Source: Aurantiacibacter marinus (GTDB taxonomy: Bacteria > Pseudomonadota > Alphaproteobacteria > Sphingomonadales > Sphingomonadaceae). From it: a DNA stretch of 64,000 bases. Under the pieces are notes generated by a model. The model searched no databases and had not been told where the DNA came from. It saw only the letters and a list, made by a program, of their open reading frames with translations. Location of the stretch: contig NZ_LDCP01000002.1 of assembly GCF_001021555.1 (NCBI RefSeq), positions 62,001-126,000 on the forward strand. Reading direction: 5' to 3'. The position numbers were made by a program, and so were the translations under genes. This document shows, in pieces, positions 14,398-22,559 of the stretch (positions are counted from its first letter, which is position 1; every line of letters begins with the position of its first letter).

Positions 14398-14688
14398 GTG
14401 AAGCTGACGTCCATAATTGCAATTTATGCCCTGTTCTGGGTGATGAGCGCTTTTCTGCTGCTGCCTTTTGGCGTGCGTACGGCGGATGAGGCGGGCGAGA
14501 AGAAAGTGCCAGGCCAGGCAGATAGTGCGCCTGTAAATTTCCGTCCCGGCAAGATCGCCTTGCGCGCCACCATTCTGGCGGCTGTGCTTTGCGCTCTGTA
14601 TATCGCCAATTATTTTGAAGGTTGGATCACTGTGGATGACATCAACATATTCGGTACACCGCCAGGTTACGGCTCTCCCGAGAGCTGA
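14398..14688 (+). CDS. DUF1467 family membrane protein
   Basis: Small 96-residue protein with two hydrophobic segments (about residues 5-25 and 57-72) and a polar loop between. The N-terminal pattern IAIYALFWVMSAFLLLPFGV is that of DUF1467, found mostly in alphaproteobacteria and without known function. It starts with GTG, 12 bases after the RNase J stop, and is the last gene of the long nuo-birA-coaX-rnj series. Its stop lies six bases from the stop of the convergent coiled-coil gene. Confidence 0.85.
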   Translation: MKLTSIIAIYALFWVMSAFLLLPFGVRTADEAGEKKVPGQADSAPVNFRPGKIALRATILAAVLCALYIANYFEGWITVDDINIFGTPPGYGSPES

Positions 14689-14694
14689 ACCGCG

Positions 14695-17283
14695 TTAGTT
14701 GCGCAGCCGTTCAATCGCCTGTGCAAGCGCGACGTAAAGCTTACCGGTGTCACTTGATAACAGCGTAACGGCAAGCGCATTGCCGTCGCGGGTGGACAGA
14801 ACTTCCCGCAGCATCGCCTCGAAATCATGGATGAAGCGATTGACCGTTTCACGGAATTCGCTGTCCTCGCCGTAAACCTCTGCCACATTGCGTGAGTCAT
14901 GACGGCTGAGAAGGCGCACCGCACGGCGCGTGAAAATACCCCGGTCACCGCGCAGGTAATTGGCCCATTGCGTGTCGGAAACCTCTGTGTCGAAGGCCTT
15001 TGCGATGTCGATGGCTGACGAATTCAGCGATTCCGTGATCAGCGCCATCCGCCGGGAGAAATCACTGTCGATCTTCTCCTCAGCCCGTTCTCGCGCCGTC
15101 GTGATGCGCTGCTCAAGATTACCAGTCAATTCATTCACCAGCGCGAGCTGATCGCGCAGGTCCACAGTGGTTTCGCGCCCCCGCGCGGCTGCCTGAGAGA
15201 CAGCCTCTTCCAGTTCTTCTATCGAAGCGGTCGTGTGGTGCTGGATGGCTTCTGCGACGCGGATACGGCTGTCTTCAGCGATGCGGTTTGCGATCTCTTC
15301 AACAACTTCGCGGTGATTGTCGCGTAAGCTCTCGATTGCATGGGTGGATGACCCTGCCAGCAGATCAATCGCTTCGCGCAATTGCCCCGAAGTATGATCG
15401 GCCAGTTTCGCGCTCTCAGCGGCGACGAGCCCGATATGCGCTTCCAGCGCCTGCATATCTGCCAAAGTCGATGCGCCGCTTTGCTGCGCGGAACCAATAT
15501 GCGATGCCAGAGATTCTCCGCGCGCCTCTGCCTGGGTGACCAGATCGTGCAGACGGCTCGCCTCTTCACCAAACCTTGCCAGTCGCGCTTCAGCTTCACC
15601 AACTGCGTCTGACAATGCGCCTTGTGAATGATCTGCACCGGAGCGAATGATTTCCAGAAGACGAACACCATCGTCGGTCAGGCGGGCAATATGGGCTGTA
15701 TTTTCGTCAAGCAATTCACGGCTTTGGGTAAGGCGCGCTGCAAAAGATTCGGCTGCTGTATCAAGAGAGCCAGTGGTATCTTCCCCATCCTGCGCGAGCC
15801 TGCGGAGATCGGAGTCGATCCTATTGATACGAGCGGCAAGCTCTTCACTGCGCTCACCCAGCGAATTCAGCAGAGCAAGATAGTCGTCCTGCCGCCGCGC
15901 CAGCTTCGCATCATACGTTGTCAGCCGCGACTCCATGTCGTCCAGCGCTTCTGTCTGCATCCGAGCGGCCGATTCCCGCCGGTGCTGCAATTCGCTATCG
16001 AAAGACACAAGGCTTGCCGATATGCGCATTTCGACTTGCGCGGCTTCTTCGGACAAGGCGGCAAGGCGGCGGCGTGCGCTTTCCATCGCCTGCTCATCCG
16101 TTTGCGCAACTTCGGCAATGGCTTCTGCCATGCGCGTTTCAAGGGCGCTGACCGCTTCGCTCCAAGCACTGACCGCATGTTCGCGGCCATCAGCAAGCGC
16201 GCCGAGCAACCGCTCCCCTTCGCCGGTAAGCGTGGCGATCTGGTTGCGTAACGCGGCCAGTGCGGCATCCTCTGCCTCCCGCTGTTCTGTCTCCCGTTCT
16301 GCCAGCAGGCCCGCCATTTCGTCAGCGCGGACCCGAATGGATTCGAGCGCAGCATCCTCGGACTCGACCATGTCGGTGCGGAACGCCTCGCTTACATCGC
16401 GGAGCTTCCCGAAGCGCGCCTGTGTAACCTCCCCCAAGGCAGCGATCTGCATATCGAACGCATCGAGAGTTGCAGTGACCTTTGCGCTGATGGTTTCGAC
16501 GTGTTTCTCGCCAGCTTCGCCAAACTGGTTGAGCCGGTCAAACCCGCTCACCAACGCTTCTATCTGGCCATGAGCAACATTTCCGGCGTTGCCGATCTGG
16601 TTGCTCATATCCCGCGCTGCGTTTGAAAGCACGGGCAATTGATCGCGCAGACTTTCCATGTTGGCCAAGGCGCTAGTGCTTACCGAACCGAGGGTTTCGA
16701 CCTGCGCACCATTATCGCTGATGAGTTCCTGCAGCCGTGCTGCATTGGTAGATAGCCGCTCTGTCGCGACGCGGCCGAGAGACTCAAGGTCACGCGACTG
16801 GGAAGCAATGAAATCCCTTGCGAGACTCAGCTCTCTGTTGACGATCGTCAAACGTGTTTCAAGCTGACCTGACTCATATGCAAGCGCACGGGCCGCATCG
16901 GTAAACCGGTTGGCTTCGCGGCGGCTGTTGCGCATCGCCAGCAACCATAAACCGATCACGAGAAGAACTGGCACCGACCACGTTGAAATCCACTGAGACC
17001 ACTGCTGGGCACTAGCACCTGCAAGTATTTCCTGATGATGGACCCAGCCAAAAAAACCTGTCCAGCCAAGCACCGCAGCAATGGCCAATGCAGGAACAAT
17101 CCATGTGCCACGCGGACTGGCAGGGATTTCCTCTTCATCCCAATCAGCTCCAGCTGGTTCTTCGAATGCTATTTCCGCATTCGTCAATTCCAGAGTTATT
17201 TCGTCTTCGTTCCGGCCGAAAGTCGGCTCGATATTGATATCGTTTCCCTCTTCAGAGGGCAGGATGCTGCGTCGTCGTGTCAT
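14695..17283 (-). CDS. Membrane-anchored long coiled-coil protein of unknown function
   Basis: 862 residues. The first 58 are acidic and presumably cytoplasmic. Two transmembrane segments follow (about residues 60-80 and 102-117), and then some 740 residues of charged, Ala/Glu/Arg-rich heptad-type helix with almost no proline, continuing to near the C-terminus. The layout resembles a membrane-tethered coiled-coil scaffold (compare RmuC, MCP or tape-measure-like helices), but I see no methyl-accepting tip, no nuclease motif and no nucleotide-binding motif. Its start lies 29 bases from that of a divergent HPt-like gene. The last about 110 residues (DTEVSDTQWANYLRGDRG onward) look globular and could be the functional head. 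Confidence 0.85.
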   Translation of the reverse strand: MTRRRSILPSEEGNDINIEPTFGRNEDEITLELTNAEIAFEEPAGADWDEEEIPASPRGTWIVPALAIAAVLGWTGFFGWVHHQEILAGASAQQWSQWISTWSVPVLLVIGLWLLAMRNSRREANRFTDAARALAYESGQLETRLTIVNRELSLARDFIASQSRDLESLGRVATERLSTNAARLQELISDNGAQVETLGSVSTSALANMESLRDQLPVLSNAARDMSNQIGNAGNVAHGQIEALVSGFDRLNQFGEAGEKHVETISAKVTATLDAFDMQIAALGEVTQARFGKLRDVSEAFRTDMVESEDAALESIRVRADEMAGLLAERETEQREAEDAALAALRNQIATLTGEGERLLGALADGREHAVSAWSEAVSALETRMAEAIAEVAQTDEQAMESARRRLAALSEEAAQVEMRISASLVSFDSELQHRRESAARMQTEALDDMESRLTTYDAKLARRQDDYLALLNSLGERSEELAARINRIDSDLRRLAQDGEDTTGSLDTAAESFAARLTQSRELLDENTAHIARLTDDGVRLLEIIRSGADHSQGALSDAVGEAEARLARFGEEASRLHDLVTQAEARGESLASHIGSAQQSGASTLADMQALEAHIGLVAAESAKLADHTSGQLREAIDLLAGSSTHAIESLRDNHREVVEEIANRIAEDSRIRVAEAIQHHTTASIEELEEAVSQAAARGRETTVDLRDQLALVNELTGNLEQRITTARERAEEKIDSDFSRRMALITESLNSSAIDIAKAFDTEVSDTQWANYLRGDRGIFTRRAVRLLSRHDSRNVAEVYGEDSEFRETVNRFIHDFEAMLREVLSTRDGNALAVTLLSSDTGKLYVALAQAIERLRN

Positions 17284-17312: not shown

Positions 17313-17660
17313 ATGAAACCCCGCCTTAACCGGTTCTGCCCCATGGCTTTACGAATGGCATATGCACACGGCGATTTCGAACTGACACTCACCGCTGCCG
17401 CTGGGGATGATCCAGCGCTTTTTGCGGAATTGCGCGCCTGTTTCGTGGAGAGCCTCGCGATCCAGATCGATTTGTTGAAACGCGCGCGGTGTGACGGGAA
17501 CTGGACAATGGCGGCGCAGCGCCTGCGCGGACTTGCTGCCAGCTTTCATTCCGGCGACCTCGTGGCGCTGGCTGATGAAGCCCTGGACGGCGCCCCTGGC
17601 GATCCGGCAGTGTTGCGCAAACTCGGCGCTTTTGCCGACGGATTTTCTTCACAGTCATAA
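17313..17660 (+). CDS. HPt-like protein lacking the phospho-acceptor histidine
   Basis: 115 residues of helical character. Residues 66-82 (MAAQRLRGLAASFHSGD) align by eye with the HPt core pattern A-H-x-L-K-G-x-A, with Gln69 (codon CAG) where the phosphorylated histidine should be and Arg72 in place of the conserved lysine. The spacing of flanking helices also suits an HPt four-helix bundle. If the assignment is right, the protein cannot take part in ordinary phosphotransfer and would be a binding module. Alternative starts at residues 11 and 15 would shorten only the N-terminus. It is the first gene of a plus-strand row leading to a kinase-like gene. Confidence 0.6.
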   Translation: MKPRLNRFCPMALRMAYAHGDFELTLTAAAGDDPALFAELRACFVESLAIQIDLLKRARCDGNWTMAAQRLRGLAASFHSGDLVALADEALDGAPGDPAVLRKLGAFADGFSSQS

Positions 17661-17732
17661 TCACACCGCTTGGCAGCATGGAGCGCGATCACTAGCTTGA
17701 TGGCTCAAACCCGCTGTCAGGAGCATTACCAC

Positions 17733-18893
17733 TTGCGAGCCGCATTGATCAGCCTGCCGCAGCCGGGGGAGGACGCGCAGCCCTCCCTCGCAGGCAAAAC
17801 CATCGCACAGCGGCAATTGCTGTTCGCGCGGGAGTGCGGCTGCACAATGGTAATCGCTCACGGTGGCGGCGCTTCGGAGGATGCTATTGCCATGCGCCAC
17901 GCGGCAGAAAAGGCGGGCATGCGCTATCAGGTGATTTCCAATACACACGCTTTATCCGGCGCGATTGGCAATAACGACACCTTGCTGGTGTTGCAGCCAG
18001 GCCTGTTGCCGGAAGCGAAGCAAGCTCTTGATTTGCTTCGCGCAGAGGGCGACCGGCTGCTGATAGTGTCCGCCGGACCGGGTGCCGCGGCAGGTCTGGA
18101 ACGGATCGACCTTGACCGCGCGTGGGGCGGGGCGATGACATTGCCGGGTAGCTGGCTTGAACGTCTCGGCGGGTTGCCCGAAGATGCGGCCCCGCATGCG
18201 GCATTGCTGCGAATTGCGCTGCAGCAGCGCCTGCCTGAAGCACGAATGGCCGATACTGTGCTGGATGATGGCCGCTGGATGATTGTCGACAGTGAAGAGA
18301 CTGCAAGATGGCGGGAAAAGGGGTGGTTGCGAGACCACCTTGGGGATTCGTCTTCAGGGCAGTTTTCCCGCTGGATCGCGCAGCAAACAATTGGCCGGGC
18401 AGGGTCATGGTTGGTGGAGCGCGCATGGTCACGGCCAGCTTTTTTGGGGTTTGCGGCAGTCTTGCTCGGCAGTTCGGTCGCGGCAGCCATCTACGATAGC
18501 CCGGTTGCCGCTTTTGCCCTGGCAGCGCTATCTGTGCCGGTTCTTGAAGCTTTTTTCGCCCTGTCCCGGCTGATCGCCGCACCTTTTGGCCGGACCAGAC
18601 GGTTATACTTGTTGCGCCATGCGGTCGATGCAGCGCTTCTAACTGTCAGCCTGCTTTCTATCGACAGTCTGTGGTACCGTGCCGCTTTTCCGTCTTTCGT
18701 CTTGATAATTGCTCTTGTGTTGCTGGATCGCGGCGTAGTCAGGCCGTTGATCGAACCATTGTGCGACAGAGGCCTAGTCGCCGTATCGATAGCTGCGTTG
18801 GCGGTTCTGACTTCGTCTGAAATTGCCATAATGCTGGTTGCATTCGTCGTATTGGCCGCCAGACTTTCGCCCGATGCAAAAAATAGCGGCTAA
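17733..18893 (+). CDS. Membrane protein with nucleotidyltransferase-like N-terminal domain
   Basis: 386 residues from a TTG that has AGGAG nine bases upstream; an in-frame ATG at 17670 is possible but has no comparable ribosome site. The first about 200 residues resemble the Rossmann-like NTP-transferase fold by pattern: RAALISLPQPGED, then LAGKTIAQRQLLFARECGC, then DTLLVLQPGLLP. However, the usual glycine-rich GxGxR nucleotide loop is absent, so catalysis is doubtful. After residue 240 come about five hydrophobic segments. A similar layout occurs in lipid-head-group enzymes, but I see no CDP-alcohol phosphotransferase motif. Function unknown. Confidence 0.7.
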   Translation: MRAALISLPQPGEDAQPSLAGKTIAQRQLLFARECGCTMVIAHGGGASEDAIAMRHAAEKAGMRYQVISNTHALSGAIGNNDTLLVLQPGLLPEAKQALDLLRAEGDRLLIVSAGPGAAAGLERIDLDRAWGGAMTLPGSWLERLGGLPEDAAPHAALLRIALQQRLPEARMADTVLDDGRWMIVDSEETARWREKGWLRDHLGDSSSGQFSRWIAQQTIGRAGSWLVERAWSRPAFLGFAAVLLGSSVAAAIYDSPVAAFALAALSVPVLEAFFALSRLIAAPFGRTRRLYLLRHAVDAALLTVSLLSIDSLWYRAAFPSFVLIIALVLLDRGVVRPLIEPLCDRGLVAVSIAALAVLTSSEIAIMLVAFVVLAARLSPDAKNSG

Positions 18894-18927
18894 CGCGGAA
18901 TTAACGGTAACAGGGTAAGCCGCACGC

Positions 18928-19887
18928 ATGAGCGAACATGGTCAACCCGGCGCCCCGGCGGAAACGTTAGAAGTCGTGCTACGTGCAGAAGTGGCGCATG
19001 GCGACGCTATAATCGCCACTACTGGCCCGGTCTTGCATCACTTGCTGGTGAATGATGACCAGACGCTCTTCAGCGATCTGGTGATTGCCCGGGTACGCGG
19101 CATGATGGCGGACATCGCAAGGCAATTGCTTTTCGCTGTAGCCGAAGAGAACGGCTATTCGGATAAATCCGCATTTACGGCAGAACATGCAAACGATTTG
19201 GCTGTGTCCTTGCTGGCACAAGCAGATTTGCTCTCGCATGCCCACGCCTTGACGATCGAGGCGCAGACTACAGACCGGCTTGCCCAGCGTAACGGGATTG
19301 ACCCTGTCCTTCCCTCGTTACTGCAAGAGCTTGCATCATCATCGGATGCAGAAGTTGCCGGAAGTGCCATGCGGGTTCTGGCATCGCAGGCACGCTTCAT
19401 GCAGCAACAGCGCCGCATGAGCCTGCCTCTAAACGAACTGCCCGAAGACTTGCTTGATCTCTGCCTGTCTGTTCTGCGCAGCATATTTCCCGAGAGCGAG
19501 AGCGCCTTGACCCGAACCGAAACGCACATTCGCGGCGGCTATGACCCTGCAGCGCGCCGCGTTGGTCTGATCGGACAGCTCATTACAAACATGAAGCAGG
19601 ACGCGGTCCGCACCATTGACATCGACCGCGCGGGCGTCGCAATTTTCGCCACCGGACTTGCTATGGCAACTGGTCAGTCACGCGATAAGACCATCCTGAC
19701 GCTGGGTGAAAAGCAGTGCGCGCGCCTTTCTTTAAGCCTGCTGTCGGCGGGTCTGAAGCATACCGATGTTGAGGACCAGTTTCTGTTCCTGCATCCCGAA
19801 GTCGAATTGCCTGAGGGATTTCAAGCCCTGACCAAAGATCGTGCAGCAGCCATGTTGGCAGTAGCACGCCCGGAGGAAATGCGCTGA
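18928..19887 (+). CDS. Hypothetical helical protein
   Basis: 319 residues, soluble, largely alpha-helical, with no signal peptide and no motif I can name. The middle part (about residues 90-180) is rich in Ala/Leu/Gln, and the C-terminal part ends acidic. It lies 34 bases after the membrane protein gene and five bases before the kinase-like gene, so it is probably cotranscribed and may work with it. A loose resemblance to alphaproteobacterial DUF2336 proteins is possible, but I cannot establish it. Confidence 0.75.
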   Translation: MSEHGQPGAPAETLEVVLRAEVAHGDAIIATTGPVLHHLLVNDDQTLFSDLVIARVRGMMADIARQLLFAVAEENGYSDKSAFTAEHANDLAVSLLAQADLLSHAHALTIEAQTTDRLAQRNGIDPVLPSLLQELASSSDAEVAGSAMRVLASQARFMQQQRRMSLPLNELPEDLLDLCLSVLRSIFPESESALTRTETHIRGGYDPAARRVGLIGQLITNMKQDAVRTIDIDRAGVAIFATGLAMATGQSRDKTILTLGEKQCARLSLSLLSAGLKHTDVEDQFLFLHPEVELPEGFQALTKDRAAAMLAVARPEEMR

Positions 19888-19891
19888 CCAA

Positions 19892-21256
19892 ATGGTTTCT
19901 TCCAACATCTTGACTGCAAGAGCACGCACCGATGGCGATGACCGCCTGATCGAAGCCGAGGAGCCATTGGCGAGCTTTCACTTGCGTGCCGGAGGAGAAT
20001 TGCCGGGACCGATAGTTACGCCCGCTCTCCTCGATCTTGTGCGCAAGGCCAGAGAGCGCGGCAAGCGGATATCCCGTGCAATCCGCGCCCAGGATTCGGT
20101 AGAGCAAATTTCGGCCTGGGCAGAGGTCATACCGGGCAAATCCGGCACGATCATCAATATCAGCACATGGACAGCAGAGGACATTGTCCCCAATGCTTCT
20201 GTGTCTGAGAACTACCAGCGTCTGGCGCTAGTCCGGCATCTTTCAGGCCTTACTGCGCGCCTTGGTCCGGATCAGGAACTGTTGGCTGTCGACTGGACAG
20301 CCCGTGATCTGGATGCGCTTGGTGACGCCATGATGGAAGGTGCCGGACAGCCGTGGACGGACTTTGCGGTACCCGTCGGCAACAACCACCAACAACCGAT
20401 GCACTGGCGGCTTCTGGACGGTGTGCAGGTTACAATTCCAGATTCCCCTCGTGCGTGGGCGGTGCAACTTGTGCCCCTTGGCCGAAACGAGCCGGGCAGC
20501 GATGGGTTTGAACTGTATCTTGTTCCGGACAAGCCCCTTTCCGAAACAGCGCCGGCACGATCACGCAAACCGGATCGTTCGGCCGGGATCGGACGCGATA
20601 TCGCGCCCGTGCTTCGTCAACCGGTCAGCCGCATCATTGCAAACGCCGAGACCATTCGTACGCAGCTGGCAGGGCCATTGGCTGACGAATACAGTGCATA
20701 CGCCGCTGACATTGCCTCTGCAGGAGAGCATTTGCTCGCCTTGATCGACGATTTGACGACGTTGGAAATGGTGGAAGACGAAGACTTTTCGCCAGCACCG
20801 GACAATATCGACCTGGCCGATGTCGCAAGGCGCGCAGCTGGCATTCTGGGTGTTCGTGCCAAGGACCGCGGAATAGTACTCGTTGCTCCAAAAGCCGATG
20901 AAAGCGTACCCGCGATAGGCGAATTCCGCCGCACGTTGCAGGTCCTGCTCAATCTGGTGGGCAATGCGATCCGCTATTCACCTGAAGGCGGCGAGGTCTG
21001 GATACGCGTTGAAGAGGCAAGCGGCCGCGCGCGCGTTACCGTTGCGGATCAAGGAGAGGGTCTCGGGGAAGAAGAGCAGGCGAAGGTATTTGCCAAGTTC
21101 GAACGGCTGGGCCGTAGCGGCGATGGCGGTTCCGGCCTTGGCCTGTATATCTCACGCCGCCTGGCAGAGGCGATGACTGGCAGCCTGACTGTAGAGAGTG
21201 CGAAGGGGCAGGGCGCCCGCTTCACCCTCGAATTGCCCGGTGACCCCGAGGCATAG
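19892..21256 (+). CDS. Histidine-kinase-like protein with the phospho-acceptor position changed to proline
   Basis: 454 residues without transmembrane segments. Residues about 60-215 could be a PAS-like sensor region. Residues 237-290 occupy the place of the HisKA dimerisation domain, but the H-box reads APVLRQPVS where S-H-E-L-R-T-P-L-N is expected, so Pro239 replaces the histidine. The ATP-binding domain is intact: N-box around Asn358 (LNLVGNAIRYS), Asp386 in VADQGEGLG, and the G-box GGSGLGLYI at 412-420. It therefore probably binds ATP but cannot autophosphorylate in the normal way. It starts five bases after the preceding gene. No response regulator gene is adjacent. Confidence 0.85.
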   Translation: MVSSNILTARARTDGDDRLIEAEEPLASFHLRAGGELPGPIVTPALLDLVRKARERGKRISRAIRAQDSVEQISAWAEVIPGKSGTIINISTWTAEDIVPNASVSENYQRLALVRHLSGLTARLGPDQELLAVDWTARDLDALGDAMMEGAGQPWTDFAVPVGNNHQQPMHWRLLDGVQVTIPDSPRAWAVQLVPLGRNEPGSDGFELYLVPDKPLSETAPARSRKPDRSAGIGRDIAPVLRQPVSRIIANAETIRTQLAGPLADEYSAYAADIASAGEHLLALIDDLTTLEMVEDEDFSPAPDNIDLADVARRAAGILGVRAKDRGIVLVAPKADESVPAIGEFRRTLQVLLNLVGNAIRYSPEGGEVWIRVEEASGRARVTVADQGEGLGEEEQAKVFAKFERLGRSGDGGSGLGLYISRRLAEAMTGSLTVESAKGQGARFTLELPGDPEA

Positions 21257-21274
21257 CCCCGGGGCACCTTTTTT
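21244..21274 (+). terminator. Probable terminator of the kinase-like gene cluster
   Basis: CCCCG at 21244-21248 can pair with CGGGG at 21260-21264, followed closely by a run of six T at 21269-21274. It overlaps the stop codon of the kinase-like gene and lies between it and the convergent gltA. The stem is short, so the call is moderate. Confidence 0.5.
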
Positions 21275-22559
21275 AGCGTTCGCTTACCGGTACATAATCG
21301 CGCTGCGTCGGCCCCGTATAGAGCTGGCGCGGGCGACCAATGACCTGGCCGGGATCGGAAATCATCTCATTCCACTGTGCAACCCAGCCTACGGTGCGTG
21401 CCAGCGCGAACAGCGCGGTGAACATCGTCGTCGGGAAGCCGATAGCGGACAGGATGATGCCGGAATAGAAATCGACGTTCGGGAACAGCTTCTTCTCCTG
21501 GAAATACGGATCGCTCAGTGCAATCTCTTCGAGGCGAAGGGCGGTTTCGAAGACCGGATCCTTTACTTTCAATGCGTCAAATACTTCGCGCACCGTTTTC
21601 TGCATGACCACAGCACGTGGATCATAATTCTTATACACCCTGTGGCCGAAACCCATCAGGCGGAACGGATCATTCTTGTCCTTTGCCCGCTCGATATAAT
21701 GCGGGATCCGGTCCGGCGTACCGATCTCGCGCAGCATGTTAAGTGCCGCTTCGTTCGCGCCGCCATGCGCGGGGCCCCAAAGACAGGCAATCCCGGCAGA
21801 GATACAAGCGAACGGGTTGGCGCCCGAAGAACCGGCAAGCCGCACTGTTGATGTAGAAGCGTTCTGTTCGTGATCAGCATGCAGGATGAAAATGCGGTCC
21901 ATCGCCCGTTCGACTTCAGGAATGACTTCATATTCTTCTGCAGGAACACCGAAGGTCATGCGCAGGAAGTTGCCAGTATAGCTCAAGGAATTGAGCGGCT
22001 GCATGAAGGGTTGGCCGACCGAATATTTGTACGCCCACGCAGCAATTGTCGGCATCTTGGCGATCAATCGGTGGCTACTGATTTTCCGGTGCTCAGGATC
22101 GGAAATATCGGTGCTGTCATGATAGAAAGCAGACAATGCGCCGACTACGCCGCACATAATAGCCATCGGGTGCGCATCACGGCGAAAGCCCTGATAAAAC
22201 TGCCGCATCTGATCGTGCAGCATCGTATGATAGGTAATCGTGTGAGTGAACTCGTCGAGCTCGTCCTTGGTGGGAAGCTCTCCGGTCAGCATCAAATGGC
22301 TGACCTCCATGAAGCTGGAATGTTCAGCAAGCTGGCCGATTGGATAGCCGCGGTGCAACAGCACGCCTTCCTGGCCATCAATAAAGGTCAGCGCGCTCTC
22401 GCAGCTGGCGGTCGATTTGTAGCCCGGGTCAAACGTGAACTTACCGGTATTGCCATAGAGCTTGCGGATATCGATGACATCCGGCCCGCAGCTGCCTTCC
22501 AGCGTCGGGAAACTGTAGTTTTCGCCGCCAACTGTCAGTTCTGCTTGCTTGTCCGCCAA
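21273..22559 (-). CDS. gltA: Citrate synthase
   Basis: Condenses oxaloacetate and acetyl-CoA, the entry step of the citrate cycle; 428 residues, the size of the hexameric Gram-negative type. Motifs include [20 protein letters not shown] and [15 protein letters not shown], which carry catalytic histidines. The start codon is TTG, with an AGGAG ribosome site just upstream on the minus strand. gltX lies 42 bases upstream on the same strand, so the two may be cotranscribed. Confidence 0.97.

Follow-up and report, generated by a model that had tools for sequence, protein, structure and literature searches.

The four-gene operon and its products

In a window of 64,000 nucleotides from Aurantiacibacter marinus (Sphingomonadales, Sphingomonadaceae; contig NZ_LDCP01000002.1, positions 62,001 to 126,000), four consecutive plus-strand open reading frames, here called genes 1 to 4, encode an HPt-like (histidine phosphotransfer) protein, a membrane protein with a nucleotidyltransferase-fold head, a helical protein and a histidine-kinase-like protein. 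Judged from its sequences, this operon is a real, conserved and derived pseudo-phosphorelay. An earlier note on this DNA had described the four genes and the absence of histidine from both the HPt-like and the kinase-like product; the codons of Gln69 and Pro239 and the alignments agree with that description. Its coordinates hold as well, apart from the start of gene 1 (Table 1). The true start of gene 1 is probably the ATG at 17355, as this codon (Met15 of the long frame) is conserved and the preceding stretch holds a conserved DNA element, whose translation is the upstream 'KPRLN' of the long frame. For gene 2 the ATG at 17700 was taken as the start; the list of open reading frames starts it at TTG 17670. 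Individual loci and sequences are referred to below by L numbers.

Table 1. Coordinates, in the window, of the operon, its key codons and its neighbours
Feature	Position	Strand	Remarks
Conserved DNA element GAAACCCCGCCTTAAC (GAAAC-N6-TTAAC)	17315..17330	+	Begins 40 nucleotides upstream of the likely gene 1 start
Gene 1, pseudo-HPt, about 101 amino acids	17355..17660	+	Open frame 17313-17660; Gln69 at the acceptor-histidine site
Codon CAG, Gln69 of gene 1	17517-17519	+	Numbered from 17313
Gene 2, membrane pseudo-IPCT/DIPPS	17700..18893	+	Broken catalytic motifs; head of nucleotidyltransferase fold, helical membrane domain
Gene 3, all-helical protein (model)	18928..19887	+	Putative distant relative of DUF2336/SpbR
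Gene 4, pseudo-histidine kinase	19892..21256	+	Input region, DHp domain without histidine, complete ATP-binding domain
Codon CCC, Pro239 of gene 4	20606..20608	+	At the phospho-accepting histidine site
g0, divergent neighbour, 862 amino acids, coiled-coil-like	14695..17283	-	Two hydrophobic stretches near the N-terminus (by eye)
Citrate synthase (gltA), convergent neighbour of gene 4	21273..22559	-	Label presumed from the sequence

The product of gene 4 matches the Pfam models HATPase_c (1.5e-27) and HisKA (2.6e-6). Pro239 lies in IAPVLRQPVSRIIANAET of the DHp (dimerisation and histidine phosphotransfer) region and aligns with the acceptor histidine; relatives outside the family read SHELRTPLNAI there, and SHELRTP is carried by all seven kinases fetched from outside the family, which are among the best matches there. 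The acidic residue that normally stands beside the acceptor histidine is also lost (Val, Ala and others). The acceptor site is occupied by proline in 31 of 31 close loci, in 18 of 20 intermediate ones (the others having one Ala and one Ser) and in 70 of 70 of the set L173-L252. The 18 readable distant members have Pro (three), Gly (three), Ser, Glu, Gln and Thr (two each), and His, Arg, Asn and Ala (one each). The residue drifts in distant genera and is fixed as proline in one group, which suggests that what counts is the missing histidine and not proline itself. The sole His-bearing relative (L101:5879-7348) reads RIDHSFKPP, and the usual acidic neighbour is absent from it.

The ATP-binding domain of gene 4 has all its boxes (N, G1, F and G2). 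Positions N354, N358, D386, G388, F400, G415 and G417 are invariant in every readable member (n=139; five of 144 sequences were dropped as truncated or gapped), G390 and G413 are changed in one member each, and F403 in eight of 139. The statement of the earlier note that ATP-binding motifs and reading frames are intact is supported. This near invariance, distant members included, would fit a kinase that has lost self-phosphorylation alone and still transfers phosphate to the DHp domain of another kinase or to Ser, Thr or Tyr of a partner, residues that some GHKL kinases phosphorylate. Nevertheless, such a trans-acting kinase is quite unlikely. Its local partner, gene 1, has no histidine, and the acidic residue beside the acceptor has gone too; moreover, DivL of Caulobacter keeps all boxes and binds its regulator at the docking module, yet is reported to lack kinase and phosphatase activity (PMC4211667).

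Like DivL as described there, gene 4 combines a DHp region and complete ATP-binding boxes with an acceptor residue other than histidine, and it too is likely to be a binding platform. It differs from DivL in that the residue is proline or drifting, not tyrosine, and in that it shares its operon with a pseudo-HPt and a pseudo-enzyme. A separate DivL-like kinase with tyrosine at this site is encoded elsewhere in the genome. The latter, a second pseudo-kinase outside the window (L162, at G000:C3:391700-395100), reads SYEFRTP and has one TGA inside the ATPase match.

The DHp region of gene 4 aligns with L146-L149 and others and resembles PAS kinases that carry the pattern GPL..Y..YA.DI..G.HLL, which we take to be a signature of PdhS/DivJ/PleC-type DHp regions. 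One possibility is therefore that gene 4 is a DivL analogue proper, listening to a phosphorylated DivK-like regulator and controlling a hybrid kinase such as CckA, with genes 1-3 as accessories. Indeed, the signature was seen in none of 42 frames (at least 250 amino acids) from 20 other ATPase stretches of the genome, although by a narrow regular expression, and the genome encodes two single-domain regulators, L333 and L325, that we assume to be DivK-like (their NCBIfam matches are those of general regulators, L325 matching NF045717 below its cut-off). However, a Tyr-bearing DivL-like kinase is already available, and a tree of DHp-ATPase sequences places gene 4 in a monophyletic group (support 0.888) that does not join the PdhS/DivJ-type outgroups, so that the case for a DivK-type partner comes down to the DHp signature. 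We regard this explanation as unlikely.

The HPt-like motif of gene 1, AAQRLRGLAASF, carries glutamine where HPt proteins carry histidine. The window copy has no match among the Pfam and NCBIfam models. One relative, L099, passes the cut-off of the Pfam Hpt model (1.5e-5), and three of 15 close members match this model at E <=10 (best 5.5e-5). When the gene 1 profile is aligned by hhalign with a profile of His-bearing Hpt domains, the E-value is 6.6e-9 and Gln69 is placed on their histidine. The Hpt alignment leaves out L054. Thus gene 1 resembles Hpt (PF01627) in its motif region A.RLKG..ASF, profile match and size, and has His-bearing relatives beside the g0 domain elsewhere; it differs in lacking the acceptor histidine, which is replaced by Met, Leu, Gln, Glu, Trp, Arg and others.

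Gene 2, as its sequence shows, still has the fold predicted for an enzyme of lipid head groups in the membrane, but its catalytic motifs are broken. It belongs to the IPCT-DIPPS proteins and has the predicted folds of both the head and the membrane domain; it differs from the bifunctional enzyme (PDB 4mnd) in that the nucleotide-binding loop and the Lys, DG and Asp residues are gone in nearly all members. Among 104 sequences (70 from the set L031-L132 and 34 from L173-L252), DG is retained in none, Lys in two, and the last Asp residues in two of 98 and three of 98. In the comparison sequences L139 and L140 the nucleotidyltransferase loop, the Lys and the motif DGxxAR..G..D..D, which we take to be that of CDP-alcohol phosphotransferases, are intact. 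Hence the proposal of the earlier note that the system acts on a membrane enzyme is not supported. A variant close to it, in which gene 2 is an enzyme with a new active site regulated by genes 1, 3 and 4, would account for the residues E134, R135, D137, W142, G144 (ERID....W.G) and R171, whose conservation (64 or more of 70 members for each) is unusual for a mere anchor, and for one Asp of the head that 38 of 104 sequences retain. Against it, both parent domains have lost intact catalytic motifs, and two of the close loci lack the gene; this variant is very improbable.

The window copy of gene 3 matches no family, the DUF2336 and SpbR models included. Distant members do resemble these families. 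At E <=1, five of 14 members of the wide set match DUF2336 (PF10098), the best being L111 (2e-8, 34.5 bits against a cut-off of 34.6), and one, again L111, matches SpbR (NF052659; 1.5e-5, 24.3 bits against a cut-off of 400). The profiles of close and distant members match each other (E 3.7e-16). The structure model is of high confidence (pLDDT, the predicted local distance difference score, 92.2) and all helical, and its comparison with solved structures gave no useful match.

Conservation, control region and neighbours

The genes present are collinear in all 72 loci of the family (32 close and 40 further), which were selected for holding gene 3 or gene 4. Gene 2 is present in 69 of them, g0 in 68 and gene 1 in 44 (18 of 32 close, then 17 of 20 and 9 of 20). 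Gene 3 was detected by the close model in 55; in 11 loci a same-strand frame of 317-391 amino acids occupies the gene 3 gap, L106 being ambiguous. The earlier note had named two outcomes that would speak against it, namely normal H-boxes in close relatives and genes that are usually unlinked. Both were looked for and neither occurred: the order is conserved across much of the family, and nearly all relatives lack both acceptor histidines.

A scan by the g0 C-terminus alone yielded 80 loci (L173-L252) from Aurantiacibacter, Erythrobacter, Altererythrobacter, Qipengyuania, Novosphingobium, Citromicrobium and other genera, of which 72 contain gene 4 and 71 contain gene 1. This set overlaps L031-L132 in species (e.g. 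L187/L055), and thus all counts are of loci, not of independent genomes. Of 246 genomes of the order, 147 match the profile of the gene 4 N-terminus, and with one exception (E 4e-4) these 147 belong to the same family. Some 70 of the matches are weak and confined to the beginning of the profile. Gene 3 was found in 34 of 61 genomes searched, all of one genus. In a class sample of 240 genomes, which included three of the family, the profiles of genes 2 and 4 found only general relatives outside the family. As far as these searches reach, the combination of genes is new.

The housekeeping genes that flank the operon are conserved, genes 1, 2 and 3 are sometimes lost, and gene 4 of L108 is split across two frames, as might be seen in a decaying remnant hitch-hiking between essential genes. 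This hardly deserves belief: in 12 relatives gene 4 shares 53-79% identity with the window copy and its ATP motifs are invariant, and collinearity is complete.

The region between g0 and gene 1 contains the conserved element listed in Table 1. Its core AAAC-N6-TTAA was observed in 27 of 38 regions upstream of gene 1, 33-40 nucleotides before the start (200 mononucleotide shuffles gave a mean of 0.045 and a maximum of 1), and in just one of 14 loci without gene 1. Within the window the element is matched perfectly only once; if one mismatch is tolerated, there are four matches against 1.26 expected. Its identity with a CtrA box was not supported. Another element, GGTTAAAACCCAC, was found in the gap between g0 and gene 2 in seven of the 14 loci without gene 1 (L035, L040-L043, L047, L048).

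The common order in the fetched loci is RNase J-like gene, g0 (minus strand), genes 1-2-3-4, citrate synthase (minus) and glutamyl-tRNA synthetase (minus); the labels of the three housekeeping genes are presumed from their sequences. In 31 of 32 close loci (the remaining contig ends there) and in 36 of 40 further ones, citrate synthase adjoins gene 4. The C-terminal 200 amino acids of g0 form a domain widespread in Alphaproteobacteria, and the protein is presumably TipN-like in its layout only. A DUF1467 gene (3.8e-32) occupies 14398-14688, with g0 on one side and the RNase J-like gene on the other.

Frequency and direction of the losses

In the domain counts given in PMC12632262, the acceptor histidine is missing from 722 of 76,471 HisKA domains (0.9%) and 90 of 10,312 Hpt domains (0.9%). 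Set against these rates, its absence from both proteins in nearly all relatives considered here is beyond chance. In the same genome, the comparison covered 18 frames around 20 of the 22 other ATPase-domain hits; 15 of the frames have an acceptor box (14 with His, one with Tyr) and three have none by the patterns used.

The gene 1 profile matches HPt proteins in ten genomes outside the family. Seven of these genomes were fetched, and in four the HPt gene is divergent and adjacent to a g0 relative. Among 40 further hand-picked genomes with g0 relatives (39 usable, with the upstream side estimated), a divergent HPt gene was observed in six. All ten HPt proteins that stand beside a g0 relative (four and six) retain the histidine, and the three that were scanned all exceed the Pfam Hpt cut-off; it is their profile that aligns with gene 1 at E 6.6e-9. 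It follows that the HPt-g0 adjacency probably predates the family and that the histidine was lost on the line leading to it. As for the g0 C-terminal domain, 90 of the 240 genomes sampled from the class have it, three of these being members of the family. The His-bearing pairs come from several other alphaproteobacterial families (L269, L270, L271, L272, L302, L303, L306-L309); no name was found for the pair.

Possible function

The conserved order despite the lost key residues suggests that the operon is a switch or scaffold, acting by binding rather than by passing phosphate. That the genes form a pseudo-phosphorelay of this kind, with protein-interaction modules of two-component systems retained after the loss of phosphotransfer, seems to us about evenly balanced between right and wrong. 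The assembly may be an ATP-driven or conformational switch, as the earlier note had proposed. By analogy with DivL, gene 4 could serve as a conformational platform, loaded with ATP, on which a receiver, e.g. a DivK-like single-domain regulator, or an input ligand docks. Gene 1 would bind a receiver without accepting its phosphate, gene 2 would anchor the assembly at the membrane and perhaps sense a nucleotide or lipid precursor, and gene 3 may be an adaptor.

Several observations weigh against this picture, as does the tree described above. The acceptor site is His in one of 139 readable members of gene 4, and in three of 114 of gene 1 (one of 115 sequences being left out), the latter coming from two genomes, one of them counted twice. 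The motif Arg of gene 2 is kept in 51 of 104 sequences, in addition to the surviving Asp. At least 17 genomes of the same family gave no match to the gene 4 profile. Gene 1 is absent in 14 of 32 close loci, and a profile search did not find it elsewhere in those 14 genomes (six of six positive controls were found). Gene 2 is missing from two of 32 close loci, and five of 72 loci have no room for gene 3 (L103, L105, L108, L110, L132). Thus each of genes 1, 2 and 3 can be missing while gene 4 stays, one fixed complex is not required, and the view of the four genes as an obligatory set is not supported.

The neighbours, i.e. a coiled-coil membrane protein and citrate synthase, together with the resemblance to SpbR, suggest a role at the cell pole or in the cell cycle; this is the weakest link of the argument. 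The presence of a gene of TipN-like layout and of citrate synthase on the two flanks is suggestive only. A study of Caulobacter in which tipN mutants were used found that citrate synthase controls CtrA independently of its enzymatic activity (PMC7083601). In Sphingomonadales, CckA-ChpT-CtrA is kept and DivJ-PleC-DivK is degenerate or lost, according to a comparative paper (PMC2877005, section 6). The operon might then encode a phosphate-free, ATP-tuned switch or scaffold built from three dead enzyme families (kinase, phosphotransfer protein and lipid-head-group synthase), linked both to a coiled-coil protein of the pole and to citrate synthase, and replacing the lost DivJ-PleC control. In this full form the proposal is conceivable but doubtful.

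A conserved operon that pairs both losses with a membrane pseudo-enzyme is a natural system for asking what two-component proteins do without phosphate passing. It also bears on where Sphingomonadales place the cell-cycle control that Caulobacter runs via DivJ-PleC-DivK.
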